NCBI GenBank assembly: GCA_900316305.1
Contig: ONCM01000017.1
Coordinates: 1-54,320, forward strand
Reading direction: 5' to 3'
DNA: 54,320 nt
DNA from: an uncultured Bacteroidales bacterium
GTDB lineage: Bacteria; Bacteroidota; Bacteroidia; Bacteroidales; WCHB1-69
Of this stretch, positions 3,427-53,846 are shown piece by piece; positions within the stretch are counted from its first letter, which is position 1, and every line of letters starts with the position of its first letter. The notes below the pieces were generated by a model, which searched no databases, had not been told where the DNA came from, and saw only the letters and a list, made by a program, of their open reading frames with translations. A program made the translations under genes and the position numbers.

Positions 3427-4599
3427 ATGTTCTTGAAAATCACAAACTTAAAAAGAGGTTTTTATGAGTTGGTGTGCATTGCTGTCTTTGTCACGCTCTT
3501 CTCCTTCGTTACCATATTGCGCCCACCTGCCGTTGGAGCAATGTATAAGGAAGTCATAATAGCTGTCTTAGTGCTCTGTCTGTACTATGTCAATCGATAT
3601 GTTCTGTATCCTCACTTCTATTTGAAATTAAATATCGGAAAGTACATTATCTTTTCGCTACTGTGCATATTCTTTGTCGCAGTTGCTGAAATTATCTTGA
3701 TATACCCTCAGCTTGATAATATACTGTCGGCTATCTCCACTCCTGATGAATCTAAAAGAGCTTTCCTTGTTTACTTTTTGCTTATTTGTAGTCGTGATAT
3801 GGCCCTTTTTCTCATTACTTATATCCTCTGTAATATGCTTGTATGGCGTACTCTTAACGAAAAGTACGAATTTCGTTTGCGAAGAACTTATAATGAGATA
3901 ATGGCATTCGACATCTCCTCGCCGATTAGTCTTGACTCTGGTTACCGTACGTCTGCGGAAGAAATGTCTCCTGTTTCTTCGGAGAAGGTATTAGGCAGGG
4001 ATTTAGAAACTGACAATAGTGCATTTATTGAAGCTACTCATTATGTTAGTGTCATTGATATTCTTTATTGTGAGCAATTCAAAAATTCTACTATGGTACA
4101 CACTGTTGACATGAATATTTTGATTCACAATAGTTCATTGAAAAAAACAATAGTGTTACTTGGGAAAGAAAATGTTTTGCAAATCTCCAAAGATGTTATC
4201 GTCTCAAAAACATATATTGATGATTTTGATGGCCAGCATCTTACCATTACAGTTCCGAAAAACAACACAACAACAACGTTAGAGGTATCTTCAAAATACA
4301 AAGAAAATGTACTTCTTGTATTGGAACAATTGAAGTCTTCCCAACAGAAGAATTCGATTCCTGATGTGAATGAAAAGTCAGCGGAATGGAGAATGTCTAA
4401 ATTGTTGCAGAAGGAAAAGCATCATAAAGTGTATTTCTATGTTCGGAATAATCCCTTGTGCAAGGCGGAAGAGTTGTCAGACAAATTAAATATACGGGCG
4501 GCAACCCTCAACCGCATCCTCAAGCAGCTCAAGGCGGACGGGCTCATCACGTATGAGGGGAGCAAGAAGACGGGAGGATACAGAGTAGTTAGCAGTTAG
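3427..4599 (+). CDS. Membrane-anchored regulator: four TM segments, LytTR-like domain, C-terminal winged helix
   Basis: The 390-residue product has four predicted membrane segments (about 15-31, 43-60, 72-93 and 110-139) in a layout like LytTR-type Bacteroidota sensors. Residues ~204-300 (YVSVIDILYCEQFKNSTMVHT ... SLKKTIVLLG ... VSKTYIDDFDGQHLTIT) resemble a diverged LytTR DNA-binding domain. Residues ~320-390 look like a winged helix-turn-helix (CKAEELSDKLNIRAATLNRILKQLKADGLI). Two DNA-binding-type domains on one membrane anchor is unusual. The last five codons, VVSS plus TAG, are written by the 7-bp repeat that follows. The YitT gene 75 bp downstream has its own -7 box. The LytTR call is by pattern and moderately sure; the target genes are unknown. 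Confidence 0.7.
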   Translation: MFLKITNLKRGFYELVCIAVFVTLFSFVTILRPPAVGAMYKEVIIAVLVLCLYYVNRYVLYPHFYLKLNIGKYIIFSLLCIFFVAVAEIILIYPQLDNILSAISTPDESKRAFLVYFLLICSRDMALFLITYILCNMLVWRTLNEKYEFRLRRTYNEIMAFDISSPISLDSGYRTSAEEMSPVSSEKVLGRDLETDNSAFIEATHYVSVIDILYCEQFKNSTMVHTVDMNILIHNSSLKKTIVLLGKENVLQISKDVIVSKTYIDDFDGQHLTITVPKNNTTTTLEVSSKYKENVLLVLEQLKSSQQKNSIPDVNEKSAEWRMSKLLQKEKHHKVYFYVRNNPLCKAEELSDKLNIRAATLNRILKQLKADGLITYEGSKKTGGYRVVSS

Positions 4600-4629
4600 T
4601 AGTTAGCAGTTAGTAGTTGGCAGTTAGTT
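4584..4629. repeat. 7-bp tandem word block (GTTAGCA/GTTAGTA)
   Basis: About six tandem copies of AGTTAG[CT], starting inside the last codons of the regulator gene (its stop TAG is at 4597-4599) and ending just before the YitT promoter. Confidence 0.85.
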
Positions 4630-4641
4630 CCCAAAAAATAG

Positions 4642-4649
4642 TATCTTTG
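4642..4649 (+). promoter_or_regulatory. -7 box TATCTTTG for the YitT-family gene
   Basis: Exact TAnnTTTG match, 24 bp before the ATG at 4674 and directly after the tandem-word block. It argues against an upstream start at 4617. Confidence 0.7.
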
Positions 4650-4673
4650 CCGCCGAAATACAACGAAAACAGT

Positions 4674-5591
4674 ATGGAATTATCAAAGGAAAAACGAAAA
4701 GAGATTTTCAAAACATACGGCCTCATCATTTTGGGCACCTTCATCATGTCCATCGGGTTCGTGGTGTTCATTTCGCCGCTGAAGCTCGCGCCCGGCGGCG
4801 TGTATGGTATCGCCATCATCCTGCACCACCTCTTCAACTTCCCCATCGGTCTGTCAGGTATCTGTCTCGACCTGCCGCTGCTGCTCATCGGAACGCTGTG
4901 GCTCGGTCCCCGCTTCGGCATGAAAACCCTCGTGGGCGTCATCTCCCTGCCGGCCTTTATCTCGCTGTGGGAGAGGTTCTATGGCTACGCCCCGCTGATC
5001 GGACTGCCCAATGATCCCATGATCCCCGACCCATCGGCCACCTTCATCCTTGCCCTTTTCGGCGGCGTGATTATCGGCATCGGCCTGGGACTCATCTTCA
5101 AAACTCAAGCCACCTCCGGCGGTACGGATATTATCGCCATGATTATCGGCAAGTATTTGAAACACATCCCGTTAGGCACTATTCTCATCTTTGTGGATTC
5201 CACCATCGTCCTCTTTGCTTTGGTTGCCTTCAAAGACTGGACCATCCCGCTTTACTCTTGGCTGGTGATTTACGTGACGGGCGTGGTGATGGACAAGGTC
5301 ATCACGGGCTTCCGCGCCAACAAGGCGGTACTGATCATCTCCGAAAAATACGAGGAGATCCGCCAGCGCATCTTCGACGAACTGGACCGCGGCGGCACCT
5401 ACCTCAAAGGTGAAGGTATGTACAACCACGATGAAAAGAAGATCATCTTCACCTCCATCTCCCGCAAACAACTGCCTACACTTATCCACTTCGTCCATGA
5501 GATTGATGACAGGGCTTTCGTCACTATCTTGGATGCTTCTGAGACGCTTGGTGACGGTTTCAATTCCCTTAGAGAGAAGGCGTTGAGCTAA
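4674..5591 (+). CDS. YitT family membrane protein (YitT membrane domain + DUF2179)
   Basis: The 305-residue product starts MELSKEKRKEIFKTYG and has five to six hydrophobic segments over residues ~15-190, including FISPLKLAPGGVYGIAIILHH and the conserved TQATSGGTDIIAMI segment typical of YitT proteins. The C-terminal ~80 residues (ISEKYEEIRQRIFDELDRGGTYLKGEGMY ... ISRKQLPTLIHFVHEIDDRAFVTI) form the soluble DUF2179 domain. YitT proteins are inner-membrane proteins of uncertain transport role. The start was set by the -7 box at 4642. A strong hairpin terminator follows the stop, so the gene is probably monocistronic. Confidence 0.9.
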   Translation: MELSKEKRKEIFKTYGLIILGTFIMSIGFVVFISPLKLAPGGVYGIAIILHHLFNFPIGLSGICLDLPLLLIGTLWLGPRFGMKTLVGVISLPAFISLWERFYGYAPLIGLPNDPMIPDPSATFILALFGGVIIGIGLGLIFKTQATSGGTDIIAMIIGKYLKHIPLGTILIFVDSTIVLFALVAFKDWTIPLYSWLVIYVTGVVMDKVITGFRANKAVLIISEKYEEIRQRIFDELDRGGTYLKGEGMYNHDEKKIIFTSISRKQLPTLIHFVHEIDDRAFVTILDASETLGDGFNSLREKALS

Positions 5592-5609
5592 CGAATAATC
5601 CCAATAAAG

Positions 5610-5650
5610 AAAAACCGCAACGATCAGACGACCGTTGCGGTTTTTGTTTG
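5610..5650 (+). terminator. Rho-independent terminator after the YitT gene, likely bidirectional
   Basis: GC-rich stem built on ACCGCAACG and CGTTGCGGT, with an A tract before and a T tract after. It can also serve the opposing subtilase gene whose stop is at 5694. Confidence 0.85.
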
Positions 5651-5651
5651 T

Positions 5652-5685
5652 TTTGTAGAGACGCGCCATGGTGCGTCCCTACAAA
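5652..5685. repeat. REP-like palindrome, GTAGAGACG type
   Basis: Two 17-bp arms (5652-5668, 5669-5685) with no loop and two mismatches, centred on CCATGG. It sits between the terminator and the convergent subtilase stop. Confidence 0.85.
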
Positions 5686-5693
5686 CGGAATGA

Positions 5694-7994
5694 TTAGAAA
5701 ATCTGAAGACCAATTTCCCATTTCGGGAGGTCGGGAGTGATTGTGCCTTTCACTTTCAGCAGGTTGGAAATGCGATATTGTCCGTAAATAGCGAACCGTC
5801 TGGTGATACCCACACGCATACGCACACCGTAGTCAACAGGATTCATCCAATTATAGTTCAGGTAATGCTTCTTCACGTATGTAATCTGTTGATTATTATC
5901 GTCCTTCAACACGAGTTTGTAGCGGCTACCGGTATTCCATTCGCCGTAGATGCCGGCATCCAAATACCACCATTCCGAACCGGCACTGCTCAAAATGAAA
6001 CGGTTCACAAGCTCCAAATCGAATTTCGTGACCTTGACATTCCGTTTATATATCGCGTCTTCATTTCCAGGCAAAAGCAAAAGTATGTTGCCAGCAACGT
6101 TGTATTCGGGACCATCAATCAATGGATTATAAGTAGGAATAATATCGTCGGAAACGGCATACCAAGAGGAACCGAAACCGATACGGAAGCCAAACGCATA
6201 GCATCTGGCCAAACGCCAACTGTTGTCAAAGGCGAAGGTGAGACCGTGCGAGAGCCGTTTGGAACTCCAGATATTGCCTTGCGGACCCCACATAGAGGGC
6301 AACATGAACGAATTGTTCAGCACAAAACTAAATTTGTAGGATTTCGGGTATTTGCGCGTGTAGATGTCGTTGTCGGGAGCAGAGATTTTGCTTGCACAGC
6401 TGCAATAGCTGGCGTTTGCAGCAGTGATACTATCCACCTGAGGCAGCGATTTCTGTCCGACGACATATTTCAGATGCTGACCGTCGCTCCAGATTTCCAG
6501 TGTTTGGCCGTTTTGCAACCGGCTTTTGGAGAAACGGAGGGAGCCTTCGTCCTCATTGACAACCTTTTGATTATAACTCTCTATGGTGCCGTCGCCGTTG
6601 ACAATCTTGAAAAAGATGCTGGCATCGCCTTTTTTGCAGGTAGCATATACTGCGTCGTCATCCTCCGACAGGGAAATGTTGTTCCCAACTTCCGGTTTTT
6701 CGCCGAAGAAGTAGCCGGCCTGCGGCACGCCGTAACCGAACGCATAGTCGAAATAAGGATAGTGGTTAGCGGATTTCTCAATCTCGGTCTTCAGCTGCCA
6801 GGCGGTGTATTCAGGATGTAATTGCTTAACGCACGCGGCGAAACCGGCCATCATCGGGGAGGAGAAAGAGGTACCGGAGGCCTGCGTGAAGTTGCCCTTG
6901 CTACCGGCCACCCAGTTGTCATCGCCCATGGCTACCACATTGGGTTTCATGCGACCGTCCGCAGTCGGACCGAAGGAGCTGAAACTGGCGATTCTGTCGA
7001 TGCTTTTAACGGCACCCACGGAGAGGACACTGTCGGCATCGGCGGGGGTGATGAGCATTCGCCACTCCCTGTCATCGCCTTCGTTGCCCATGGAGTTGCA
7101 GACCAAAATACCCTTGCGGGCGGCAGTGTTAGCAGCCTTGGCCACTCTGGATGTCTGACCGTCCATATTCTTGAGCATGTAACGCTGTTTGCCATAACCG
7201 AGAGAGCTGTTCAAGATGTCGGCACCGTTTTGGTCGGCCCATTCAAGTCCCTGCACCCACCAGATCTCCTCTTTCAAGGGCTCGGAGGCCACTTCAGTGC
7301 GTGCCAACAGGAACTGTGCGTCGGGGGCCATGCCGAGCATCTGGCTTCCGTTCATGATGCCCGCGATGCAGCTCAGCACCATGCGACCGTGTGATTCCGC
7401 CTCATAGACGTACTCTTTCTTTTTCACGAAGTTCCAAGTCTTCACAATTTGGCCGTTGTCGCGTAGATGCTGGAACGCGGGGTGCGTGTCGGCTTCCTTG
7501 AAACCGCCGTCCAAGATGGCGATGCGCACGCCCTTGCCGGTGATTTTGTGCTCCTTGAACAGCTCGCCGTGGTGGATGCTGATCTGCTCACCGGCGTAGT
7601 CGCTGGTCACATTTTCGGTAATGTTGTTTTCGGCAAGCTCCATGTCGCTGGCAATCAGCTGGATATCTGCCACGAACGGGAATTGCCTAATTTTGGCAAT
7701 TTGCTCTTCCGTAGCCATCACGCCAGCCGCGTTGAGCCACCGCGATGTGCCCACCAGCTCCTCACAAGCTGTTTTCACCTGTGAGGCATAGTTGCTGTTC
7801 ACGGGATAGTTGGTGATGTCGTACAAATCCGCCCCGCACTGCGCGTAACGCTCAATGGCCTTCGCATCAAAGTATTGATACGGGTCAAACGTGGTGTTCT
7901 GCTTGTCCGTGAAGAACACCCAATAGCTGTTCTGCGCACTCGCGATGCCAAGAATGGCGCAGAAGAGGGTAAATAATAATGTAATTTTTTTCAT
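5694..7994 (-). CDS. Secreted S8 subtilisin-like protease with a C-terminal outer-membrane-type beta-barrel
   Basis: The 766-residue product begins with a signal peptide (cleavage after GIASA, residue 20). The subtilase catalytic triad is visible: D162 in AILDGGF, H202 in SHGRM and S376 in GTSFSSPMMAG, with the oxyanion Asn at N304 in MGNEG. The protease ends near residue 420 and is followed by a ~110-residue linker region containing CSC. Residues ~550-766 show alternating hydrophobic and aromatic strands (YKFSFVLNNSF, AFGFRIGFGSSWYAV, WWYLDAGIYGEWN, GVRMRVGITRRFAIYGQYRI) and end in a terminal Phe, as outer-membrane beta-barrels do. No T9SS sorting domain is present, so the barrel may anchor the enzyme. 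Protease call firm; barrel inferred from pattern. Confidence 0.9.
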   Translation of the reverse strand: MKKITLLFTLFCAILGIASAQNSYWVFFTDKQNTTFDPYQYFDAKAIERYAQCGADLYDITNYPVNSNYASQVKTACEELVGTSRWLNAAGVMATEEQIAKIRQFPFVADIQLIASDMELAENNITENVTSDYAGEQISIHHGELFKEHKITGKGVRIAILDGGFKEADTHPAFQHLRDNGQIVKTWNFVKKKEYVYEAESHGRMVLSCIAGIMNGSQMLGMAPDAQFLLARTEVASEPLKEEIWWVQGLEWADQNGADILNSSLGYGKQRYMLKNMDGQTSRVAKAANTAARKGILVCNSMGNEGDDREWRMLITPADADSVLSVGAVKSIDRIASFSSFGPTADGRMKPNVVAMGDDNWVAGSKGNFTQASGTSFSSPMMAGFAACVKQLHPEYTAWQLKTEIEKSANHYPYFDYAFGYGVPQAGYFFGEKPEVGNNISLSEDDDAVYATCKKGDASIFFKIVNGDGTIESYNQKVVNEDEGSLRFSKSRLQNGQTLEIWSDGQHLKYVVGQKSLPQVDSITAANASYCSCASKISAPDNDIYTRKYPKSYKFSFVLNNSFMLPSMWGPQGNIWSSKRLSHGLTFAFDNSWRLARCYAFGFRIGFGSSWYAVSDDIIPTYNPLIDGPEYNVAGNILLLLPGNEDAIYKRNVKVTKFDLELVNRFILSSAGSEWWYLDAGIYGEWNTGSRYKLVLKDDNNQQITYVKKHYLNYNWMNPVDYGVRMRVGITRRFAIYGQYRISNLLKVKGTITPDLPKWEIGLQIF

Positions 7995-8013: not shown

Positions 8014-8046
8014 CAGTTAGCAGTTAGTAGTTAGCAATTAGCAGTT
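8014..8046. repeat. 7-bp tandem word block (CAGTTAG), left arm of an inverted pair
   Basis: Four to five copies of AGTTAG[CT]A upstream of the subtilase start. The block at 8117-8151 carries the same word on the other strand, so the two could pair around the subtilase promoter. Confidence 0.8.
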
Positions 8047-8116: not shown

Positions 8117-8151
8117 AACTACTAACTACTAACTGCTAACTGCTAACTATT
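8117..8151. repeat. 7-bp tandem word block (CTAACTG), right arm of an inverted pair
   Basis: Copies of CTAACT[AG] on the plus strand. The stop codon of the GntR regulator gene (8147-8149, TAG on the minus strand) lies inside the block. Confidence 0.8.
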
Positions 8152-8494
8152 TCGCCATCGCCACAATCTCCTGAATGTCAATCCCCAGCAACTTGAGATT
8201 CTTCAAAAACTCCGGCACCTCCTCCTCCATGAACTCCTTCTTTCGGATGGCGTGGATTTTCTCGGGGGCGTCCTCGTTGACGAAGAAGCCGATGCCGCGC
8301 TTGTTGGTGATAATCTCTTGGTTCTGAAGATGTTCGTAGGAGCGCATGACGGTGTTGGGGTTCACCTCGAAGGCGACGGCCAGCTCACGCACGGATTTGG
8401 CCCGCTCGCCCGGCTTCCACGCGCCCGACAAGATTTGCTCGAACACCCAGTTCTCGATCTGCCGGTAGATGGTTTGTGTGCTCTTGAAATCCAT
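8147..8494 (-). CDS. GntR family transcriptional regulator, YtrA type
   Basis: A 115-residue protein with the short YtrA-type GntR layout. An N-terminal winged helix covers residues ~1-75: IYRQIENWVFEQILSGAWKPGE, then SVRELAVAFEVNPNTVMRSYEHLQ as recognition helix, and the wing ITNKRGIGFFV. A short helical tail of ~40 residues follows, not a full ligand-binding domain. YtrA proteins repress neighbouring ABC transporter genes, which fits its place as last gene of an ABC operon, one base after the permease-like gene. It is more usual for this regulator to be first. Its stop codon is supplied by the adjoining repeat. Confidence 0.9.
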   Translation of the reverse strand: MDFKSTQTIYRQIENWVFEQILSGAWKPGERAKSVRELAVAFEVNPNTVMRSYEHLQNQEIITNKRGIGFFVNEDAPEKIHAIRKKEFMEEEVPEFLKNLKLLGIDIQEIVAMAK

Positions 8495-10623: not shown

Positions 10624-10676
10624 GTAGAGACGTGCCATGGAAACATTTATGAGACGTTTCAGGAAACGTCTCTACA
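10624..10676. repeat. Composite REP-like element: half unit plus complete hairpin
   Basis: GTAGAGACGTGCCATGG (10624-10640) is the left half of a palindrome like that at 48077-48104. It is followed by a perfect 10-bp hairpin, GAGACGTTTC/GAAACGTCTC (10651-10672), and TAC. The second part matches the core of the palindrome at 36775-36806. It looks like two family members joined. Confidence 0.8.
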
Positions 10677-14321: not shown

Positions 14322-14323
14322 CA

Positions 14324-14350
14324 TTGGCTTTTAGCTTTTGGCTATTGGCA
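14324..14350. repeat. 7-bp tandem word block (TTGGCTTTTAGC)
   Basis: Short block of TTGGC/TTAGC words, three bases after the mreB stop and directly before its terminator. Confidence 0.65.
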
Positions 14351-14396: not shown

Positions 14397-15128
14397 ATGA
14401 AAGTTTTAAATCCTTTATATATTATCCTTTTCTGGTTCTGTTTGTGGATGCCTGCCGTTCTCGTGGCGCAGCAGGATACGTTTCCCTATAGTTTCTGTCC
14501 GTCGGCGCCGATTGTGAAGGATCACGAGGGTAACCGTTACCGTACCGTGCAGATCGGGACGCAATGTTGGATGGCGGAGAACATGCGCTGTTCCACTTCC
14601 CCGACGGGCAAGCACTGGCTCTACAACCCTCGTTTTACGGCTATGCAGCCGCTATATGCGGCCTATTATGCTATGCCGACAAATTCCCGGAACGGCCTTC
14701 TCTACAGTTGGGCGGCGGCCATCGACCGCAATGACCATGTAAAGTCCGGAAAAGCCTTGTCAAAGCCTGTGCGCGGCATCTGTCCGGAAGGCTGGCATCT
14801 GCCTGACAATGAAGAGTGGGGTTTGCTGTTTAGAACGTTGGGGGGTAGTGCTGTGGCCGGCGAGATGATGAAAGCACCCACGAAACAATGGCAACCTCAC
14901 TTGGTGATCAAGAAAGAGTATTTGTCCGGTTTTGAAGCCTCTCCAGCCGGTGCCTATACGGAGGAGGGATGCCAATATGCCGGTTATCAGGCCTATTTCT
15001 GGAGTTCGGACAACTTCAGCCGTGACGAGGCCTGGTCCTGTGTTATCTATGATTATAAAAACGAAGGCTATAACTATTTGGGGTACAAATGTTACGGGCA
15101 TTCGGTGAGGTGCGTGAAGGACGAATGA
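14397..15128 (+). CDS. Secreted FISUMP-domain protein (Fibrobacter succinogenes major paralogous domain)
   Basis: 243 residues with a signal peptide (hydrophobic ~7-24, cleavage after VLVAQ). The FISUMP pattern is clear: VKDHEGNRYRTVQIGTQCWMAENM, then GLLYSWAAAIDRN, GICPEGWHLPDNEEWGLLF, FEASPAGAY and FWSSDNFSRDEAWSCVIYD, ending HSVRCVKDE. These domains occur on secreted or outer-membrane proteins of Bacteroidota and Fibrobacterota; their biochemical role is not established. The stop codon TGA lies within the start of a 10-bp tandem repeat. Confidence 0.88.
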   Translation: MKVLNPLYIILFWFCLWMPAVLVAQQDTFPYSFCPSAPIVKDHEGNRYRTVQIGTQCWMAENMRCSTSPTGKHWLYNPRFTAMQPLYAAYYAMPTNSRNGLLYSWAAAIDRNDHVKSGKALSKPVRGICPEGWHLPDNEEWGLLFRTLGGSAVAGEMMKAPTKQWQPHLVIKKEYLSGFEASPAGAYTEEGCQYAGYQAYFWSSDNFSRDEAWSCVIYDYKNEGYNYLGYKCYGHSVRCVKDE

Positions 15129-15250
15129 AAAGCGATGAAAAGCGATGAAAAGCGATGAAAAGCGATGAAAAGCGATGAAAAACGATGAAAAACGATGAAA
15201 AGCGATGAAAAACGATGAAAAGCGATGAAAAGCGATGAAAAACGATGAAT
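15123..15250. repeat. 10-bp tandem array A[AG]CGATGAAA, about 12.5 units
   Basis: Twelve contiguous 10-bp units from 15131 to 15250, differing only at the second base (G or A) apart from the final base of the last unit, with a partial unit before them. It overlaps the stop of the FISUMP gene and runs up to a terminator. The same word recurs at 29483-29607 and 53799-53846. Confidence 0.95.
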
Positions 15251-19332: not shown

Positions 19333-19364
19333 TATTTATCGGATTAAAAGTTAAATACTTTACT

Positions 19365-19411
19365 TTGGCTTTTGGCTAATAGCCAATAGCTAATGGCCAA
19401 AAGCTAAACTA
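19365..19411. repeat. 7-bp tandem word block (TTGGCTTTTGGCTAATAGCC) forming a hairpin
   Basis: Block between serC and serA. GCTTTTGGC (19368-19376) pairs perfectly with GCCAAAAGC (19397-19405). The serC stop (19409-19411) is at its edge. Confidence 0.8.
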
Positions 19412-26814: not shown

Positions 26815-26870
26815 GGTTATAGGTTATAGAGGCTGGTAATTGTACATTGTTCATTGTACATTGTAAATTG
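26815..26870. repeat. Two adjacent 7-bp tandem word blocks (GGTTATA and TGTACAT)
   Basis: Two GGTTATA copies starting just after the yicC stop, then four TGTACAT/TGTTCAT/TGTAAAT copies ending 8 bp before the der start. Confidence 0.75.
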
Positions 26871-28185: not shown

Positions 28186-29499
28186 ATGAAAAAATTGTTC
28201 ATAGAAACATACGGTTGTCAAATGAATTTCGCGGACAGCGAAGTGGTCGCCTCCATTTTGAAGGATCAATACTCGCTGACGAAAGAGATCCAGGAGGCCG
28301 ATTTAATCCTCATAAACACGTGTTCTATCCGTGATAAGGCCGAACAACGCATCCACAAGCGTTTAAAGGAATTAGAGGCGTATAAGCGCAAAAAACGGAC
28401 GTTGCAGGTGGGCTTGCTCGGTTGCATGGCGGAACGGATGAAGGAGGAGTTGTTGCAAACGGAACCGGTGTTGGATTTCATTGCCGGTCCGGATGCTTAC
28501 CGTTCCTTGCCGCAGCTGATTGAAGATTCTCAACACGGGCATACATCTTTCAACGTATTGCTCTCAAAGGAAGAGACTTACGACAACATCATGCCGGTGC
28601 GTTACGATGCCAACGGTGTGTCGGCGTATGTTTCCATCATGCGCGGTTGTAACAATTTCTGCTCCTACTGCGTGGTGCCCTATACCCGCGGTCGCGAGCG
28701 CAGCCGTAGCCCCAAAACCATCCTCAGCGAGATTGAGGATTTGTTGAAGGATAACTACAAGGAAGTTACGCTGTTAGGACAGAACGTAAACTCTTACTAT
28801 TGGAAAGAGGGCGACGAAGAGGTCTCCTTTGCCAAGCTGATGGCGATGGTAGCGGAGATGTCGCCGGAGCTGCGTGTGCGGTTTGCCACATCGCATCCGA
28901 AGGACATTTCGGACGAGCTAATTGAAACCATTGCGCGTTACGACAATATTTGCAAATGCATCCATCTGCCGGTGCAGTCGGGCAGCAACGAGATGTTGCA
29001 GAAGATGCGCCGTGTTTATACTCGCGAGAGCTATCTGGAGCGCGTCCGCAAGATTAAGGAAGTGTTGCCGGATTGTGCCATCACTACCGACATTATTGTC
29101 GGATTCTGTGGAGAAACACTTGAGAACCATCAAGATACGTTGTCCATTATGCGCGAGGTCGGCTACGAATATGCTTACATGTTCAAGTACTCCGAGCGTG
29201 GCGGCACGCTGGCTTCCAAACAGTATCCCGATGATATTTCCGACGAAGAGAAGACCCGCCGGTTAGAGGAGGTGATCGCGTTGCAAGGCGAACTCTCGAT
29301 GGAGAGCAATCGTCGTGATATTGGCAAAACCTTCCGAGTGTTGGTTGAAGGTGCCTCCAAACGTTCTGATGATCAGCTCTTTGGTCGCAACAGCCAGAAC
29401 AAGGTGATTATTTTCCCGAGAGGGGAACACCAGATTGGGGAGTACGTGGATGTGACGGTGACGGAATGCACGCCGGCAACGTTGATGGCGATGAAATGA
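28186..29499 (+). CDS. miaB: tRNA-2-methylthio-N6-dimethylallyladenosine synthase MiaB
   Basis: 437 residues. The N-terminal cluster cysteines are C11, C46 and C80; the radical-SAM cysteines are C155, C159 and C162 in RGCNNFCSYCVVPYTRGRERSR. The C-terminal TRAM domain ends YVDVTVTECTPATLMAMK. MiaB adds the methylthio group at A37 of tRNAs reading UNN codons. The final residues MAMK and the stop TGA are written by the start of a 10-bp repeat array that runs into rlmN. Confidence 0.97.
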   Translation: MKKLFIETYGCQMNFADSEVVASILKDQYSLTKEIQEADLILINTCSIRDKAEQRIHKRLKELEAYKRKKRTLQVGLLGCMAERMKEELLQTEPVLDFIAGPDAYRSLPQLIEDSQHGHTSFNVLLSKEETYDNIMPVRYDANGVSAYVSIMRGCNNFCSYCVVPYTRGRERSRSPKTILSEIEDLLKDNYKEVTLLGQNVNSYYWKEGDEEVSFAKLMAMVAEMSPELRVRFATSHPKDISDELIETIARYDNICKCIHLPVQSGSNEMLQKMRRVYTRESYLERVRKIKEVLPDCAITTDIIVGFCGETLENHQDTLSIMREVGYEYAYMFKYSERGGTLASKQYPDDISDEEKTRRLEEVIALQGELSMESNRRDIGKTFRVLVEGASKRSDDQLFGRNSQNKVIIFPRGEHQIGEYVDVTVTECTPATLMAMK

Positions 29500-29607
29500 C
29501 GATGAATGGGCGATGAATGGGCGATGAATGACGATGAATGGGCGATGAATGACGATGAATGGGCGATGAATGACGATGAATGGGCGATGAAAAACGATGA
29601 ATGATAT
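29483..29607. repeat. 10/11-bp tandem array (CGATGAATGGG/CGATGAATGA) between miaB and rlmN
   Basis: About eleven copies of CGATGAATG[AG], beginning in the last miaB codons and ending in the first rlmN codons. Units contain ATGAATGA, so start and stop triplets overlap in many copies. Confidence 0.92.
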
Positions 29608-34601: not shown

Positions 34602-34629
34602 GTAGAGACGCAATGCTTTGCGTCTCTAC
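34602..34629. repeat. REP-like palindrome, perfect 12-bp arms
   Basis: GTAGAGACGCAA (34602-34613), loop TGCT, TTGCGTCTCTAC (34618-34629). Located between the rubredoxin stop and the rpe promoter. Confidence 0.92.
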
Positions 34630-34817: not shown

Positions 34818-34864
34818 GTTTTAAGAATTTAATGGTGTATTTGTTATTAATTTGAGTTTATGAT

Positions 34865-34931
34865 TTGGCTGTTGGCTGTTAGCTTTTAGCTGTTGGCTTT
34901 TAGCTAACAGCCAATGGCCAATAGCTAACAG

Positions 34932-34934
<3 letters not shown>
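34865..34934. repeat. 7-bp tandem word block (TTGGCTGTTAGC) with strong hairpin
   Basis: TTGGCTGTTAGC (34872-34883) pairs perfectly with GCTAACAGCCAA (34903-34914), 19-nt loop. The block spans gapA stop (34932-34934) to near the rubredoxin start. Confidence 0.85.
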
Positions 34935-35948
<1,014 letters not shown>

Positions 35949-36774: not shown

Positions 36775-36806
36775 CTGTAGAGACGTTTCATGAAACGTCT
36801 CTACAG
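36775..36806. repeat. REP-like palindrome, perfect 16-bp arms without loop
   Basis: CTGTAGAGACGTTTCA joined directly to its exact reverse complement. It starts on the base after the gldF stop and lies between gldF and gldG, so it will be present in a shared transcript. Confidence 0.95.
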
Positions 36807-39434: not shown

Positions 39435-39482
39435 CGGCTATTAGCTTTTGGCCAACAGCTAATAGCCAACGGCCAACAGCCA
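39435..39482. repeat. 7-bp tandem word block (GGCTATTAGC) with hairpin
   Basis: GGCTATTAGC (39436-39445) pairs perfectly with GCTAATAGCC (39458-39467), 12-nt loop. Located between the sufS stop and the SDR start. Confidence 0.8.
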
Positions 39483-43501: not shown

Positions 43502-43511
43502 GTATTTTTAA

Positions 43512-43571
43512 TGGTTATAGGTTATAGGTTATTGGTTATTGAAGGTCAATGGTCAATAGTCAATGGTCAAA
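43512..43571. repeat. Adjacent 7-bp tandem word blocks (GGTTATA and ATTGACC)
   Basis: GGTTATA/GGTTATT copies, then GGTCAATGGTCAATAGTCAATGG. The second block overlaps the folP stop (43553-43555) and its last codons, which encode LTIDY. Confidence 0.85.
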
Positions 43572-44371: not shown

Positions 44372-44383
44372 TTGTAATGTTTA

Positions 44384-44547
44384 TTGGTTAGAGGTTATTG
44401 GTTATTGAAGCGGGGTTATAGTTTACAGTTTACAGTTTATAGTTTATAGTTTACAGTTCATAGTTCATAGTTTATAGTTTATAGTTTATTGTAAACGAAA
44501 GTACTACCCCCATAACTGCTAACTACTAACTGCTAACTGCTAACTAA
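44384..44547. repeat. Three tandem word blocks in a row (GGTTATT, AGTTTAC/AGTTTAT, CTAACTG)
   Basis: A GGTTA-type block (44386-44408), an eleven-copy AGTTTA[CT]/AGTTCAT block (44415-44494) and a CTAACT[AG] block (44512-44547). This fills most of the 229-bp gap between the T9SS gene and folP; no gene is seen here. Confidence 0.88.
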
Positions 44548-46161: not shown

Positions 46162-46235
46162 AAGTTCAATGAACTTGGTTGCGTCACGAAAAATCCAATG
46201 CAAGTTTTATAAAAACAAAAGAGACAATAATTATA

Positions 46236-48077: not shown

Positions 48078-48104
48078 TAGAGACGTGCCATGGTGCGTCT
48101 CTAC
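48077..48104. repeat. REP-like palindrome, GTAGAGACG type
   Basis: Arms GTAGAGACGTGCCA and TGGTGCGTCTCTAC joined without loop, one mismatched pair. Its first G is the last base of the rho stop codon. Confidence 0.9.
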
Positions 48105-48134: not shown

Positions 48135-49406
48135 ATGAAAAAAGCAATTTTCACTATAGCCGTGTTAATGTGTCTTGTCACGATCTTGAAGGCAGACACT
48201 TACACGGTTTTTTTTGATGAAGAAAAGTACAACCAGTACCTTTTGGACACCATCGGTGACCGTTATGATATTGAGGGACTGGAGTTTGTGGCAAATGAGA
48301 TTTCGGAGAAACTCAACGGCGTGATGTTGGTGGCGGTGCGCGACACGGTGTTGTTGGAGCATGCCTACGGAGAATTGTGTCTGACGGGACAACCGCCGCG
48401 TCAATGCATGACCGATAATAATGTCATCACCAACAATACACTTTTCGATTTGGCTTCCATATCGAAACAGTTCACGGCCGTGTCCATCTTGCAACTCTGT
48501 AGCCAGGGACTGATTGACCTTAATGATACGATTACCCAGTATTTCCCCGATTTGCCATACAAAGGTGTGACAATCAAGCATTTGTTGACCCATACTTCCG
48601 GTATTCCCGAATATTTCAAGTTCAAATACACACTGTATGGATCGACCGCTTTTGTCGATAACCAGCAGTTATTACGCGTGTTAGAGAAACAGAAATATGC
48701 CAAAACGTTCCCAACGGGAACGAAATTCGAGTATGTGAATACCAATTATGCGATTTTGGCGGCGTTGGTGGCCCAAGTTTCCGGAGTTCCTTTTGAGGAG
48801 TACGTGCATGAGCATATTTTTAAGCCCGCCGGGATGGAAAACACTTGTTTTTTCACGGAATTGGTGGGAATTGATGCCAAGCACGGCAAAACATACGCAA
48901 ATGTGGATCCAAAATCGGAATCTGTGTCGGTGCAGCCTTTGAACGAAGTGACGGTTCCGGTGGCGCGTGGACATCGGAAAGTGCCTGTGGTGGCCGAATA
49001 TGATCGACTGAACGGGGTGCTTGGCGACAAAGGAATCTATTCCAATGTGGAAGACATGTTGCGCTGGGCTAATGCCATGTTCATCGACTATAAGATTTTG
49101 CCGAAAGAGTGGGTGGACCTTGCCTCACAGCGTGAGAACCAGCTGAAGGATGGTTCATTGCCCAAGAGCATTTATGGTTACGGCTACCGTATTGAGGAGA
49201 GCCCTGAGCACGGAAAGTTGGTCTATCACGGCGGACTTTGGAACGGTTTCCAGAACCTGTTCGTCTATCGTCCTTCCGACAATGTGGTGATTATCTTCTT
49301 GAGCAATCTCTATAATAGAGCCCACGCCGGCCGCAGTAACGAATTCCTCAATATTTTGGACGGCGCTTATGACGTTGACCATGATCCTTTGACCATTGAC
49401 TATTGA
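48135..49406 (+). CDS. Exported serine hydrolase, beta-lactamase/class C family
   Basis: 423 residues from MKKAIFTIAVLMCL with a signal peptide (cleavage after TILKA). Class C beta-lactamase-fold motifs: S108-x-x-K111 in DLASISKQFTA, Y200-x-N202 in FEYVNTNYAIL and HGG in KLVYHGGLWNGF. Family members are peptidases, esterases or cell-wall hydrolases; true lactamase activity is not implied. The frame extends upstream to 48090, but that part is palindrome sequence. The last residues LTIDY are written by a repeat block. Confidence 0.88.
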   Translation: MKKAIFTIAVLMCLVTILKADTYTVFFDEEKYNQYLLDTIGDRYDIEGLEFVANEISEKLNGVMLVAVRDTVLLEHAYGELCLTGQPPRQCMTDNNVITNNTLFDLASISKQFTAVSILQLCSQGLIDLNDTITQYFPDLPYKGVTIKHLLTHTSGIPEYFKFKYTLYGSTAFVDNQQLLRVLEKQKYAKTFPTGTKFEYVNTNYAILAALVAQVSGVPFEEYVHEHIFKPAGMENTCFFTELVGIDAKHGKTYANVDPKSESVSVQPLNEVTVPVARGHRKVPVVAEYDRLNGVLGDKGIYSNVEDMLRWANAMFIDYKILPKEWVDLASQRENQLKDGSLPKSIYGYGYRIEESPEHGKLVYHGGLWNGFQNLFVYRPSDNVVIIFLSNLYNRAHAGRSNEFLNILDGAYDVDHDPLTIDY

Positions 49407-49437
49407 CCATTGACCATTGACTTGAAACTTGAAACCT
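49388..49437. repeat. 7-bp tandem word block (ATTGACC/ATTGACT, then TTGAAAC)
   Basis: About four copies starting in the last codons of the serine hydrolase (stop 49404-49406), then two copies of CTTGAAA. It ends two bases before the start of the PHP gene. Confidence 0.88.
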
Positions 49438-49438
49438 T

Positions 49439-50278
49439 ATGACTTTTTACAAAGCAAATTATCATACCCACAGTTTGTATTGTGATGGCAAAAGCACGTT
49501 GGAGGAGCAAGTGCGTGCTGCCGAGCAATGCGGTTTGCATCAGCTGGGTCTCTCCTCGCATGCACCGGTGCCGTTCGAGAATAATTTCGCTATGGCGGAG
49601 GAGAAACTGCCCGAGTACATCCAAGAAATCGACTGTTTGCAGCGGACTACAGATGTCACGTTACTGAAATCGCTGGAATGCGACTATATTCCCGAAGTAA
49701 CGACGGAATTTGCTGACAGACAGGCACAAAACGGACTCGACTACATTATCGGCGGTGTCCATCAGGTGAAGCAACTCCATGGCGACGGTCTCTGGTTCAT
49801 TGACGGTTCCAAACAGGAGACCTACGACAATGGTTTGCGTGACCTTTTCGACATGGACATCAAGAAGGCGGTGACAGCGTTTTGGGAGCAAACCTTTGAG
49901 ATGTTGGAGACCCAGAAAATGGACATTATCGCCCATTTCGACAAGATCAAGATGCACAACCGTAACCGTTTCTTTACGGAAGATGAAGGGTGGTATAAGA
50001 TATTGGCTGACAAAGCGATACAGTTGATTAAACGGCACGATGTCATCATTGAGGTGAACACCCGTGGACTGTACAAGAAGCGCAGCGACAGTTTCTATCC
50101 CTCCACGGAGCTGCTGATGAAGGCTCGCAAGGCGGATATTCCCGTGATTGTCAGCAGCGACGCGCACAGGGCGGAAGAGCTGATGCTTTTCGTGCCCGAG
50201 GCATTGGAGGAGCTTCAGCGTTGCGGTTTTGATCATACCGCACGATTCGATGTGGAAAAAGGAAGGTTCGTATATTAG
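49439..50278 (+). CDS. PHP-domain phosphatase, histidinol-phosphatase (HisJ/HisK) type
   Basis: 279 residues. PHP metal-binding motifs: YHTHSLYCDG at the N-terminus (H9, H11), SSHAP (H41), ECDYIPE, GGVHQV, HFDKIKMHNR and SSDAHRAEEL. The closest known activity is histidinol-phosphate hydrolysis in histidine synthesis, but no his gene is nearby and other phosphoesters are possible. No ribosome-binding site is visible, as the repeat block runs up to the ATG. The stop TAG is the first repeat unit after the gene. Confidence 0.85.
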   Translation: MTFYKANYHTHSLYCDGKSTLEEQVRAAEQCGLHQLGLSSHAPVPFENNFAMAEEKLPEYIQEIDCLQRTTDVTLLKSLECDYIPEVTTEFADRQAQNGLDYIIGGVHQVKQLHGDGLWFIDGSKQETYDNGLRDLFDMDIKKAVTAFWEQTFEMLETQKMDIIAHFDKIKMHNRNRFFTEDEGWYKILADKAIQLIKRHDVIIEVNTRGLYKKRSDSFYPSTELLMKARKADIPVIVSSDAHRAEELMLFVPEALEELQRCGFDHTARFDVEKGRFVY

Positions 50279-50388
50279 TAGTTAGTAGTTAGCAGTTAGT
50301 AGTTAGTAGTTGGCGGTTGGTAGTTGGTAGTTGAAATTTGACCCTAAGCTACTAAACTATTAAACTACTAAACTTCTAAGCTTTAAGC
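50275..50388. repeat. Tandem word blocks: 7-bp TTAGTAG/TTGGTAG, then 8-bp CTAAACTA
   Basis: A seven- to eight-copy 7-bp block (50275-50332) containing the PHP gene stop, followed by an 8-bp block (50346-50388). They fill the gap up to the promoter of the CBS-domain gene. Confidence 0.88.
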
Positions 50389-50398
50389 CTTTTTTTTG

Positions 50399-50406: not shown

Positions 50407-50426
50407 CCGTACAAAATGTCAAAGAG

Positions 50427-51107
50427 ATGGAAAACAAGGCCGGACAATTTTTAGAACGATACCGCGAGATTGAGGAGTGGGTACTCAACAATCTGAATAT
50501 CACGGAGATGAAGGATTTGGAGCAGATGCCGCAGTATAAAAATATACGCAGTAATCTGGCGTTCTGCCGGCTGTTGCGCAACTTGTTATCGCATTACGAT
50601 TGGTCGAAGGCGGGCAACGACATGATTATCGTCACCGACCAGGCGGTGCGCCAAGTGAATAATCTCTACTATTCGCTCAACCCCATGACGCTGATGCGCG
50701 TGGCCATCCGCGTGGGACAAATTTTCGCGCCCTCGCCGGAGGATTCCGTGCTTGCCGCCGTCAAAGTGATGCAGCGCAACGACTACTCCTACACCCCCAT
50801 CGTGGAAAACCATCGAATTGTTGGGGTGTTCAGCACCAAAACCCTGATGCGTCTGGTGGCAGAAAACAACGGAATAAATATCACGGAGTCATTGAAATTC
50901 AGAGAAATAGCCGAATATACAAAACTGGTTGACGAACCGAATGCCCATTACGGTTTTATCAATCCGAACACGACGGTGGAGGATGTCAGCCTCAAATTCC
51001 AACGTTCAAAAACCCGCAAAGTTCGTTTGGACATGTTGTTTATCACGGACAATGGTCGTTCCGATGGCACCTTGCAGGGGATGGTTACACCGGTGGAGAT
51101 TCTGTAG
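50427..51107 (+). CDS. CBS-domain protein
   Basis: 226 residues. Residues ~1-75 are helical (FLERYREIEEWVLNNL ... NLAFCRLLRNLLSHYDW). Two CBS repeats follow: ~95-150 (FAPSPEDSVLAAVKVMQRNDYSYTPIVENHRIVGVFSTKTLM) and a more divergent one ~175-226 (INPNTTVEDVSLKFQ ... MLFITDNGRSDGTLQGMVTPVEIL). CBS pairs bind adenosine nucleotides and regulate other proteins; no effector domain is attached, so the partner is unknown. The stop lies at the edge of a repeat. Confidence 0.82.
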   Translation: MENKAGQFLERYREIEEWVLNNLNITEMKDLEQMPQYKNIRSNLAFCRLLRNLLSHYDWSKAGNDMIIVTDQAVRQVNNLYYSLNPMTLMRVAIRVGQIFAPSPEDSVLAAVKVMQRNDYSYTPIVENHRIVGVFSTKTLMRLVAENNGINITESLKFREIAEYTKLVDEPNAHYGFINPNTTVEDVSLKFQRSKTRKVRLDMLFITDNGRSDGTLQGMVTPVEIL

Positions 51108-51141
51108 TTGGCTGTTGGCTGTTAGCTATTGGCTGTTAATG
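51105..51141. repeat. 7-bp tandem word block (TTGGCTG/TTAGCTA)
   Basis: Four to five copies of TTGGCTG-type words starting with the stop codon of the CBS gene (51105-51107). Confidence 0.8.
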
Positions 51142-51168
51142 GGCAAAAAGAAGTTTATTTTCTGAGTT

Positions 51169-52676: not shown

Positions 52677-52678
52677 TT

Positions 52679-52706
52679 GTGGAGACGCGGTACACCACGT
52701 CTCTAC
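52679..52706. repeat. REP-like palindrome, GTGGAGACG variant
   Basis: Arms GTGGAGACGCGGT and ACCACGTCTCTAC with a 2-nt loop and two mismatched pairs, between holA and the nuclease start. Confidence 0.85.
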
Positions 52707-52731
52707 GAGGGAAAATCGAATATTTCTCATT

Positions 52732-53760
52732 TTATACATGGGTAATCTTGTATATCATCTCTTTCAACAATTCACCTTCATCATTATTGGCATCCACGCC
52801 TTTGGATTTTAAATCGTATTCCCTTAATATAGAGATAATTCTCGTCAGTTGCGGTATCGTATGGTTGTTGGCAATGCTGACGTTGCGGGCAATGATGGAG
52901 GGTGGTAAATTACCGAAAACGGTTCTCAGGGCATCGTTGCTCTTGTCGGGTGATAGGTGGTATCGGAGCATTTTGTGGTAGTAGGAATACAGCATGGAGA
53001 TGGTGCGGATGTTGGGATTTTCCTTCAAGTGCATCGTGAAGTTCAGCATGATGTTATAGACTTTCGAGAGATTTCGGCTGCCTAAAGCGTCTTGAAGTTC
53101 GAAAATATTGTATTCCTTGCTGATTCCGATGTACTTTTCCACGATGGCGGGTGTGATTTCGCTTCCAGGAGGAAGGGCTACTTGCAGTTTCTGGAACTCG
53201 GTGAAGATGCGGGAAAGGTCATTGCCGATATGCTCGCTGAGTACGGCGGCGGTCTGCGGACTCAGTTGGTAGTTAAAGGTCTGACTTGCAAGATCTTGGA
53301 TCCATGCGGCCAGATTCCAGTCTTTTACCCCTTCCGACACAAAAACGACCCCATGACTGGCGTAAGCTTTGGTTTGGGCCGCTTTCAGTTTTCCGTATTT
53401 ATGGCAGACAATCAGAATAGTTTGCGGACTCGGACTTTGCACGTATGCATCGAGCAATTCTATGTTTTTCAACTCTTTAGCCTCTTTCAGGATGACTACG
53501 CGATAGGGACTTCCGAAGGGGAACTGTTTGGCATTGGCCAGCACCATGTCCACGGAGGTATCCTTTCCATAGAGCACCACTTGGTTGAAATCACGCTCCT
53601 CCGGTTCCAAGATGCTGTCTTCGAACATCTTGCATAGACGGTCGATGAAAAACGGTTCCTCGCCGTGCAATAGATAGACGGGCGCAAACTGTTTGTTTTT
53701 TATTTGCGCTACGAGGTCGCTATAACTAATTGAACTACTGCTGTTTTTTTTAGCTGCCAT
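52732..53760 (-). CDS. holA: DNA polymerase III subunit delta
   Basis: 342 residues matching HolA: the N-terminal VYLLHGEEPFFIDRLCKMFED, the domain-II segment SPSPQTILIVCHKYGKLKAAQTKAY and the C-terminal IFELQDALGSRNLSKVYNIML ... SMLYSYYHKMLRYHL. Delta opens the beta clamp during loading. Runs of Ser (SSSSIS) follow the start. Gene order (unknown small protein, holA, nuclease, queD) is on one strand. Confidence 0.95.
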   Translation of the reverse strand: MAAKKNSSSSISYSDLVAQIKNKQFAPVYLLHGEEPFFIDRLCKMFEDSILEPEERDFNQVVLYGKDTSVDMVLANAKQFPFGSPYRVVILKEAKELKNIELLDAYVQSPSPQTILIVCHKYGKLKAAQTKAYASHGVVFVSEGVKDWNLAAWIQDLASQTFNYQLSPQTAAVLSEHIGNDLSRIFTEFQKLQVALPPGSEITPAIVEKYIGISKEYNIFELQDALGSRNLSKVYNIMLNFTMHLKENPNIRTISMLYSYYHKMLRYHLSPDKSNDALRTVFGNLPPSIIARNVSIANNHTIPQLTRIISILREYDLKSKGVDANNDEGELLKEMIYKITHV

Positions 53761-53774
53761 AATTATCGTGTTTT

Positions 53775-53798
53775 GGCGTATGCGATACGCCCCTACAA
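53775..53798. repeat. REP-like palindrome remnant, GTAGGGGCGTAT type
   Basis: GGCGTAT, GCG, ATACGCC (53775-53791) followed by CCTACAA. Only one arm keeps the GTAGGGG head (read on the minus strand), so it is a degenerate copy. Confidence 0.65.
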
Positions 53799-53846
53799 TT
53801 CATCGTTTTTCATCGCTTCTTCATCGCCTCATCGTGTCATCGTTAG
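53799..53846. repeat. 10-bp tandem word block (CATCGTTTTT/CATCGCTTCT)
   Basis: Four to five degenerate copies of the GATGAAAARC word on the minus strand. The stop of the small unknown gene (53843-53845) lies within it. Confidence 0.75.

Follow-up and report, generated by a model that had tools for sequence, protein, structure and literature searches.

What are the short tandem arrays that occupy the gaps between genes in this Bacteroidota genome, and from what do they derive? The window, the whole stretch of 54,320 nucleotides that was analysed, had been described as holding about sixteen gaps with short, mostly 7-bp arrays, and TRF run on the window confirmed this. Period-7 arrays were found at 4584-4628, 8014-8046, 8117-8149, 14323-14349, 19375-19407, 26815-26829, 26839-26870, 34864-34934, 39451-39482, 43508-43570, 44381-44407, 44416-44489, 44513-44545, 49375-49421, 50275-50333 and 51107-51137. 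TRF also recovered the 8-bp array (50344-50379) and the 10-11-bp arrays (15125-15249 and 29485-29603, with mixed 8/11 units at 53799-53843). The word TTAGCAG recurs at 4.6, 8.0, 8.1, 44.5 and 50.3 kb, as noted before. Many words are present, but the preliminary description went too far in calling them unrelated, because some arrays mix TTAGCAG- and TTGGCTG-type words.

The arrays are a genome-scale feature. In a 454-kb sample of this genome (G000, 97% complete), the 242 gaps of at least 30 bp, 75.7 kb including gene edges, held 135 period-7 TRF rows, compared with 1.0 on average over 10 dinucleotide shuffles, which bears out the anticipated 7-bp excess. Coding interiors held a single period-7 row in 362 kb. 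Of the 119 period-7 arrays kept, 113 were intergenic, five lay mostly over gene ends and one was inside a gene call at a sequence edge. As a correction to the first description, several arrays run over gene ends and even supply the stop codon. Word families common to several loci were also found as expected; two tandem copies of TTAGCAG, for example, occur 97 times in the 3.28-Mb genome, and the reversed pattern 0 times.

Within the window, several arrays adjoin stop codons. On the plus strand, the gene that ends at 4599 takes its TAG stop from a TTAGCAG/TTAGTAG array in its G-rich form (4584..4628), a TTGGCTA/TTAGCTT array (14323..14349) lies directly past the mreB stop (mreB ends at 14321), and a TTGGCTG array (51107..51137) begins on the stop codon where another gene ends, at 51107. 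A TTGACCA array covers the 3' end of the 48090-49406 gene and leads into TTGAAAC copies (49375..49435, +). The 10-bp array ATGAAAAGCG (15125..15249, +) begins at the stop codon that closes a gene at 15128; its core, CGATGAA, is also the core of the arms at an S23 gene on another contig (G000:C36). The TTCATCGC array (53799..53846, -) reads on its sense strand as a G-rich CGATGAA array where the 53843-54112 gene call reaches its stop. Two minus-strand gaps change words in sense order: 43508..43570 passes from TTGACCA over the stop of the 43553-44371 gene to C-rich CCAATAA/CCTATAA before the start of the 42508-43479 gene, and the composite gap 44381..44545 passes from TTAGCAG after the stop through CTATAAA to CCAATAA before the start.

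Comparison of sister species showed that orthologous gaps may hold unrelated words. GGTTATA and ATTGTAC arrays lie between an upstream gene and der (26815..26870, +), and the words of this gap vary by sister-species group: G021, G014 and G010 are alike, and G020 and G017 retain the TTGTACA part. The 10/11-bp array CGATGAATGG follows miaB (29485..29603, +), where sister species carry 8-bp AATTGATA/AATGGATA arrays or 7-bp TTAGCAG, TTTAAGG or TTAGTGG arrays.

One explanation is that replication slippage lengthens 7-bp words wherever gaps are free of constraint, giving a system of short tandem repeats specific to this lineage. The strong 7-bp excess, the confinement to gaps and the unrelated words in some orthologous gaps agree with this, as does the available text of PMC4679880, where Cyanothece strain differences are mostly 7-nt-increment indels. 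A slippage- or copy-driven origin had also been proposed in the preliminary description, and orthologous arrays do differ between species. Slippage alone, however, leaves unexplained the rule of strand and position: arrays tend towards G where they follow stop codons and towards C where they precede starts. Among stand-alone arrays (arms of S23 genes left out), 52 of the 77 after stops were G-skewed and 23 C-skewed, compared with 5 and 23 of the 28 before starts; array-free flanks gave 0.03 in this comparison. Nor does it explain the identical word at many loci, or the locus-matched inverted arms that surround one gene family, S23, in several phyla. We consider pure slippage unlikely.

Other arrays in the window form inverted pairs. 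The start of the 5694-7994 (-) gene is preceded, at 19 bp, by a C-rich arm (8014..8046, -; sense-strand sequence AACTGCTAACT). The partner of this arm is a G-rich TTAGCAG arm (8117..8149, -) found where the 8147-8494 (-) gene has its stop codon; the two are 88% complementary with 70 nt between them (RNA fold z -7.4). Inverted TTGGCTG pairs lie at the stop of the 34932-35945 (-) gene (34864..34934, -; z -6.4) and after the 39485-40687 (-) gene (39436..39482, -; z -5.2). An inverted TTGGCTT pair forms a hairpin at 19361..19411 (-; z -3.8), and the orthologous gap holds an inverted repeat in six sister species, mostly of other words. The TTAGTAG array that runs from the stop at 50278 into the C-rich 8-bp array CTAAACTA (50275..50379, +) has only partial complementarity (z -0.9). 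When gaps up to 700 bp were searched, complementary pairs scoring at least 17 were found in 8 of 91 array-bearing gaps, compared with 0 of 91 shuffled and 3 of 131 array-free gaps; this threshold is strict, since the 19.3-kb hairpin itself scores 12.5 on a similar measure. With 83 of the 91 gaps lacking a strong complementary pair, most dispersed arrays are single arms at best.

The arrays could be kept by the host as RNA-binding-protein sites, terminators or mRNA stability hairpins. This would suit the opposite skews at stops and starts, the one gap that keeps an inverted repeat in 7/7 species with different words, and the folding of the window hairpins, 4/5 of which fold better than all 200 shuffles. 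MacGregor in 2015 proposed binding sites for a post-transcriptional regulator (PMC4679880, available text). A sequence-specific binder would need conserved words, though, and words are unconserved at the compared sites; the gaps of related species are sometimes without any arrays. Host-selected regulation is, in our judgement, quite improbable.

The S23 genes offer a different origin. S23 (PF05635/TIGR02436; structures 2gsc and 2rld) is a four-helix-bundle protein, known as the protein of 23S rRNA intervening sequences (IVSs). It has no match in the window, and all seven matches in the genome lie on other contigs. Inverted-flank scores of at least 18 were reached at 20 of 29 S23 loci of the genus, compared with 5 of 299 ordinary genes of the genome under study. 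In G021, the 10 S23 loci fetched of 16 matches all scored at least 19.5, and nearly all had their own 7-8-bp word (L137 has longer units, and L129 is the same locus as L070 of the genus set). Beyond the genus, we used 80 named S23 loci from about 16 phylum-level groups, of which 78 were usable. Inverted scores exceeded 15, the 99th percentile of mispaired flanks, at 51 of the 78, and 15 did so in direct orientation; among other ORFs of those loci, 5 of 180 were above threshold (Fisher p 4e-28). A period-7/8 TRF match lay within 220 bp at 70 of the 80 loci, and the density of such matches was 8.2 per kb up to 100 bp from S23, fell to 2.6 between 100 and 200 bp, and farther out was mostly under 1. 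The arms share the polarity of the stand-alone arrays: 5' rows were G-skewed in 76 of 91 cases and 3' rows C-skewed in 82 of 95. Both neighbours were co-directional with S23 at 55 of 80 loci and both opposite at none.

Arms are not universal. The 27 of 78 loci below threshold include both from Nitrospirota and those from SAR324, Calditrichia, KSB1 and Lentisphaerota, and one match in the genome under study (C35, 49 bits) has no arms. G128, with 11 S23 matches, has a period-7 array density of just 1.7 per 100 kb (one array in 60 kb sampled); two of its seven fetched S23 loci score above 15 and five at or below, and others show short degenerate arms by eye. The number of S23 genes does not predict the number of arrays.

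Stand-alone arrays and S23 arms have words in common. A 14-mer was shared with an S23 arm of the genus by 79 of 112 stand-alone arrays, compared with 13 of 112 when arms were reversed. The test was informative for TTAGYAG (30/31, control 1), TTRGCTN (13/15, control 0) and TTCATAA/TTCTWCA (18/24, control 1); for TTATWGG (8/9, control 7) and TTTAYRG (7/8, control 4) the high controls make the test uninformative. No S23-borne 14-mer was found in the pool for TTGACYN (0/10) or TTTCARG (0/7) arrays. At one orthologous site in 17 close species, we found seven full elements, one relic and one S23-less hairpin (G062), which has the words of the full element and retains interior sequence of it. The remaining species had an inverted pair of other words without S23 (G014), a single array of other words, or no arrays (six species). 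No target-site duplication was readable at element sites.

These results suggest that the arrays come from hairpin elements that carry S23 when complete, and are either their arms or what is left of such arms; we give this reading a probability of roughly two in three. Alternatively, heptad arrays and hairpins may arise by themselves through slippage and inverted copying, and S23 elements may only insert into the hairpin loops, using arrays they do not make, by analogy with 23S rRNA IVSs in rRNA helices. That arrays far outnumber S23 genes (119 in 454 kb compared with seven matches genome-wide) fits this, as do the S23-free inverted pair in G014 and the two word families without an S23-borne copy. 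It fits less well with array-poor G128, which still has S23 loci above 15, or with the interior sequence retained in G062. Related S23 copies at non-homologous sites also have words in common more often: arm 11-mers were shared by 5 of 36 pairs at 55% identity or more, 7 of 230 at 40-55% and 1 of 265 below 40%, although the pairs are not independent. Insertion into pre-existing hairpins is possible but doubtful.

Several known systems resemble these loci. In REPIN-RAYT systems, a repeat scattered between genes also flanks a gene in inverted copies. The same holds for S23, but its gene is a four-helix-bundle protein rather than a Y1 transposase, and the repeats are tandem 7-8-mers of variable word. 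Dispersal of the arrays as REPs by RAYT (Y1) transposases is hardly credible and largely refuted: the genome has four Y1_Tnp matches, with inverted flanks above 15 at three and a fragment (L280) near a 13-bp-period array with a CGATGAA core, but period-7 arrays at 0/4, and none of these Y1 genes is flanked by the dispersed repeat. Inverted flanks as such are thus not special to S23. A likeness to the Avd protein of diversity-generating retroelements, remarked on in the available text of PMC10053308, is suggested by weak matches of three of four S23 proteins to Avd profiles (1e-3 to 1e-9; NF033474 below cut-off in 3/4, phrog_3206 matching in 3/4). The systems differ in the reverse transcriptase, as RVT_1 (PF00078) had 0 matches in the genome, 97% complete.

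The closest likeness is to 23S rRNA IVSs, RNA stems whose loop carries an S23-family ORF; versions without an ORF also exist. The S23-bearing loci fit this type in having a PF05635 ORF between inverted repeats, and G062 provides an ORF-less version. In the Coxiella IVS, tandem heptamers stand beside the S23 ORF and RNase III cuts the IVS; the protein has no known function (PMC4990558, available text). Here, in contrast, the elements occur in several copies per genome and between protein genes, with tandem-word arms on both sides and words that differ between most loci. We read the S23 hairpin elements as cousins of 23S rRNA IVSs and call them only 'IVS-like', because the loci read adjoin protein ORFs or annotated genes.

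Heptanucleotide repeats of cyanobacteria, known as short tandemly repeated repetitive (STRR) sequences, are likewise short, intergenic and present at many loci, and the likeness drawn to them in the preliminary description is borne out. Its view of an analogous, lineage-specific system appears too narrow, because heptad-armed S23 genes are also found in Nostoc, Anabaena and Calothrix, a group with described STRRs; 10 of 12 cyanobacterial plasmid S23 loci fetched had inverted scores above 15 that exceeded the direct score. TAACTGA is one dominant word in its host (PMC4679880), whereas many words occur per genome here. GGGNATC of Xanthomonas and Nostoc lies on the sense strand up to 50 bp from stops and antisense up to 50 bp upstream of ORFs (PMC4692102), the polarity found here, and no general association with mobile elements is reported for it in the available text. 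The available portions of these two papers make no link of heptamer repeats to S23, and 'S23' and 'four helix' occur 0 times in that of PMC4679880.

When complete, the proposed element has tandem 7-8-bp words as its 5' arm, usually in the G-rich orientation on the sense strand, followed by the S23 gene and then by a 3' arm in which the 5' word returns as its inverted complement. It sits in intergenic gaps, mostly co-directional with both neighbours, and may begin at an upstream stop codon that its first word then supplies. Such an element would be mobile and is probably transcribed with its operon, forming a long hairpin that holds S23 in its loop, like a 23S rRNA IVS, and may be processed by RNase III. 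Deletion of S23 would leave an S23-less hairpin, and further decay single arms, from which the single arrays would derive. Words would grow, shrink and change in 7-8-bp steps, with copying across the hairpin probably maintaining complementarity and S23 perhaps acting on its own arms. More tentatively, and less likely than not, S23 (IVP) proteins could be trans-acting partners of bacteria-wide minimal mobile hairpins whose arms are made and rewritten by S23-dependent fixed-step copying, with the long-unexplained heptamers of cyanobacteria, Beggiatoaceae, Xanthomonas and Bacteroidota, and the 23S rRNA IVSs, all members or relics.

The hairpin element would be a widespread and largely unrecognised one, and several bacterial repeat families still lacking an explanation would be tied to a single kind of genetic element. 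Two old puzzles, the nature of heptanucleotide repeats in cyanobacteria and others and the job of the S23 protein, may then be one. With this link, S23 acquires its own arms as a candidate substrate, and one can predict where the partner of each repeat family is to be sought. The natural series, which runs from the full element through the S23-less hairpin and the relic to the empty gap, allows gains, losses and changes of word to be traced. The link also suggests a route by which operon gaps and bacterial gene ends may be rewritten in short steps.

The period-7 arrays named in the preliminary description were all detected by TRF in the window, as were one 8-bp and three 10-11-bp arrays, and the word TTAGCAG was present at all five sites reported for it (4.6, 8.0, 8.1, 44.5 and 50.3 kb). 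In the 3.28-Mb draft assembly of this genome (G000; 99 contigs), the window corresponds to contig C52, and it encodes a type IX sorting domain and GldG, features pointing to Bacteroidota. To the window we added 20 further stretches of this genome, giving a 454-kb sample with genes called by a home-made hexamer caller. The expected excess of period 7 in gaps was borne out, with 135 TRF rows compared to 1.0 after dinucleotide shuffling, and the 362 kb of coding interiors held one period-7 row. None of the arrays had been said to lie wholly inside a gene. Of the 119 period-7 arrays retained from the sample, 113 are intergenic; five lie mostly over gene ends and one is inside a gene call at a sequence edge. 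Two consecutive copies of TTAGCAG matched 97 times in the whole genome, and the reversed pattern never. The doubled word TTRGCWG matched 0 to 172 times per genome in 36 genomes of the genus, G000 included, and 0 to 4 times in 24 genomes from 24 other families of the order.

Two general properties of the words were considered and dropped. A common grammar with TT in phase is uninformative since 73% of random 7-mers with this composition contain TT or AA, and stop codons in all frames are not a general array function because TTGGCTG-like words lack a stop. By eye, several forward arrays, with ends near 8046, 26870, 43540, 44407, 49421 and 50333, appear to terminate in TTGAA. Elsewhere in the window, the transcription terminator Rho (46179-48077) carries about 230 residues ahead of its conserved part, and a 48-bp tandem repeat within a gene (10886-10999) encodes what by eye is a charged stretch.

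At two neighbouring sites in G000, inverted TTAGCAG arrays enclose an interior of about 480 bp. The ORF in this interior encodes a PF05635 protein, here called S23, and four further members belong to TIGR02436; the solved structures 2gsc and 2rld are homologous to these proteins. PF05635 matches were found in all 40 genomes of the genus (2-18 per genome); across the phylum, 116 of 148 genomes had at least one. Each gene's left 300-bp flank was scored against its right 300-bp flank in reverse complement, with S23 borders fixed. Of 29 S23 loci from the genus (a thirtieth, L084, had no clean ORF and was left out), 20 scored at least 18, versus 5 of 299 ordinary genes of G000; one of these five sits between the two S23 elements. 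In G021, another genome of the genus, all 10 S23 loci fetched, out of 16 matches, scored at least 19.5, with words varying from locus to locus. The arm words of G000 include the core CGATGAA on contig C36, GAATGTA on C67, TTAGCAG at both C58 matches and AATGTAC at a sub-cut-off S23 fragment on C43, all of which also occur in stand-alone arrays, away from S23, in the window or sample. A divergent match on C35 has no arms, and the C25 match is situated at the edge of its contig.

For one conserved gene, we examined the upstream gap in 30 of the 37 genomes that carry it, among them 17 close species. S23 with TTAGCAG-type arms fills this gap in seven of the 17. Among the others, G002 has what by eye is a shrunken relic, G062 a TTAGCAG-type hairpin (fold z -7.1) that lacks S23 and retains a piece of the element interior, G014 an S23-free inverted pair built of other words, and G021 a single array of a different kind. 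TRF found no array in the remaining six, and sense-strand S23 was not found in the 13 more distant species read. In the seven filled gaps and in G062, the TAG of the first word is the stop codon of the upstream gene. The array-free gaps follow TGA (G007, G013 and G017), TAA (G031) or TAG (G009 and G063), and the latter two may be old relics. Since the G062 hairpin keeps part of the element interior and its first word supplies the stop, full elements can give rise to S23-less hairpins, and arrays are able to rewrite the ends of genes. No target-site duplication was legible at this gap. In a downstream gap of G062 (L249; G062:C55:32529-32840), S23 lies reversed beside TTAGCAG-type arms, an arrangement that loop inversion by recombination between the two inverted arms would be expected to produce.

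Words turn over between six sister species with median protein identities of 92-94% across 10-14 genes. The gap after miaB holds a 10-mer array in G000, the 8-mers AATTGATA or AATGGATA in three sister species, and TTAGCAG, TTTAAGG and TTAGTGG arrays in the other three. Upstream of der, G021, G014 and G010 share similar word mixtures, a TTGTACA part is retained in G020 and G017, as in G000, and the mixtures of G013 and G031 are quite different from the others. One long array in the der gap of G013 (L025) mixes 7-bp CACCAAT with 8-bp CACAATTC units, which suggests that 7- and 8-bp steps interconvert. The same gap in G031 (L029) contains long TTTAGGG/TTTAGAG/TTTAAGG arrays; TTTAGGG is identical to the plant-type telomere repeat, probably by chance. 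The gap at 19.3 kb retains an inverted repeat in all seven species, although the words differ, and 0 or 1 of 200 shuffles was as good. For five window hairpins compared with 200 shuffles each, the fold was better than that of every shuffle in four (z -3.8 to -7.4) and not in the fifth (z -0.9).

We estimate a probability of about two in three that the arrays are arms or relics of S23 hairpin elements. Of 112 stand-alone arrays, 79 had a 14-mer in common with S23 arms from the genus, and 13 with reversed arms; the arm pool comprised 122 TRF rows from 40 S23 loci (L129 and L070 being one locus) and may hold neighbouring non-arm arrays. The signal is carried by TTAGYAG (30/31, reversed 1), TTRGCTN (13/15, reversed 0), TTCATAA/TTCTWCA (18/24, reversed 1), TTGTACA (2/2, reversed 0) and TTGCCTN (1/4, reversed 0). 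TTATWGG (8/9, reversed 7) and TTTAYRG (7/8, reversed 4) are uninformative. The absence of shared 14-mers from TTGACYN (0/10) and TTTCARG (0/7) speaks against an S23 origin for these families. The origin of all arrays from S23 elements is partly supported. Nor are all dispersed arrays S23-less hairpins, an idea we rejected as a strong complementary pair is present in 8 of 91 array gaps and missing in 83. Closer relatedness of S23 predicts that words are shared between non-homologous sites: from high to low S23 identity, words were shared by 5/36, 7/230 and 1/265 pairs, drawn from 34 loci with TRF arms and few independent loci. A correlation between S23 and array numbers across genomes was unsupported by eye, and genome G128 has 11 S23 matches (7 fetched) yet few arrays. 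Replication slippage alone, as the origin of the arrays, appears unlikely to us.

The placement of words is non-random. Near stops, the sense strand carries TTAGYAG, TTRGCTN and TTGACYN arrays 47 times in this form and 8 times in the complementary form, and most begin only a few bases from the stop codon. Close to starts, the 32 runs counted for these families, TTATWGG and TTTAYRG are without exception in the complementary form. With S23 arms excluded, the sense strand is G-rich in arrays closest to a stop (skew positive in 52 of 77, negative in 23) and C-rich in those closest to a start (negative in 23 of 28, positive in 5); array-free flanks are unskewed (0.03). GGGNATC repeats in Xanthomonas and Nostoc have been reported to follow the same strand and position rule (PMC4692102).

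Beyond the genus, we collected 80 S23 loci from named genomes, the best 80 of at least 579 relatives and therefore biased to query-like S23 proteins; to judge from the record titles, these loci come from about 16 phylum-level groups. With a threshold at the 99th percentile of mispaired flanks, 51 of 78 usable loci had inverted flanks above it and 15 of 78 direct ones (L159 and L169 were dropped for short flanks), compared to 5 of 180 other ORFs of the same loci (Fisher p 4e-28). The dominant arm period of the 51 was 7 in 37, 8 in 10, 9 in 3 and 6 in 1. By record title, these loci represent 12 groups: Bacteroidota, Bacillota, Chloroflexota, Planctomycetota, Acidobacteriota, Desulfobacterota-type, Verrucomicrobia, Kiritimatiellaeota, Cloacimonadota, Acetothermia, Alphaproteobacteria and one Candidatus Uhrbacteria bacterium. 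Among the 78 loci, those of Nitrospirota, SAR324, Calditrichia, KSB1, Lentisphaerota and Balneolaceae had no arms above threshold. Period-7/8 TRF density was 8.2 per kb within 100 bp of S23 and mostly below 1 per kb past 200 bp; 70 of the 80 loci had a match within 220 bp, and 41 had matches also or only farther off. Arm rows were G-skewed on the 5' side (76/91) and C-skewed on the 3' side (82/95). Taking the longest ORFs as neighbours, S23 was co-directional with both at 55 of the 80 loci, and at no locus did it run opposite to both.

One S23 query matched 42 of 72,556 plasmid records, which among the matches listed were mostly cyanobacterial, with Nostoc first (n=16). Of 12 cyanobacterial plasmid loci fetched from the 42 records (L237 and L238 being near-duplicates of one locus), 10 had heptad arms whose inverted score exceeded both 15 and the direct score; L236 has direct arrays and L242 fails. 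In L236 (1285-1966) and L240 (1131-1908), the S23 gene and heptad arrays lie between cas6 and cas4, inside a CRISPR operon, annotated as type I-D in the Anabaena sp. 90 plasmid.

G000 contains four Y1 (RAYT-like) transposase matches. Dispersal of the arrays by a RAYT/REP system was rejected as highly improbable, as these four loci lack period-7 arrays; three have other inverted flanks. Short REP-like palindromes GTAGAGACG...CGTCTCTAC form a separate family in the window (5655, 10624-10675, 34602-34629, 36775-36806, 48077-48104 and others). S23 is distantly similar to the DGR protein Avd (profile matches here; PMC10053308). Reverse-transcriptase copying as in DGRs was not adopted despite this resemblance, as no reverse transcriptase was found in G000.

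Among the matches listed, only PMC4990558 couples S23 with heptameric repeats. According to its available text, tandem heptamers of strain-dependent copy number adjoin the S23 ORF in the Coxiella 23S rRNA IVS, which is cut by RNase III, and the solved S23 of X. campestris is pentameric. No title or abstract opening among the matches listed tied S23 genes to dispersed heptamer arrays, with subscription literature mostly outside and an earlier description possible; no paper was found on pairing the four-helix-bundle name of the protein with inverted repeats. The arrays as arms or relics of S23 elements would fit a hairpin element of the IVS type that is transcribed and processed. Its arms would lengthen and shorten in 7-8-bp steps, and copying across the hairpin would keep them complementary. 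S23 may bind and act on its own arms, and the element may be mobile.
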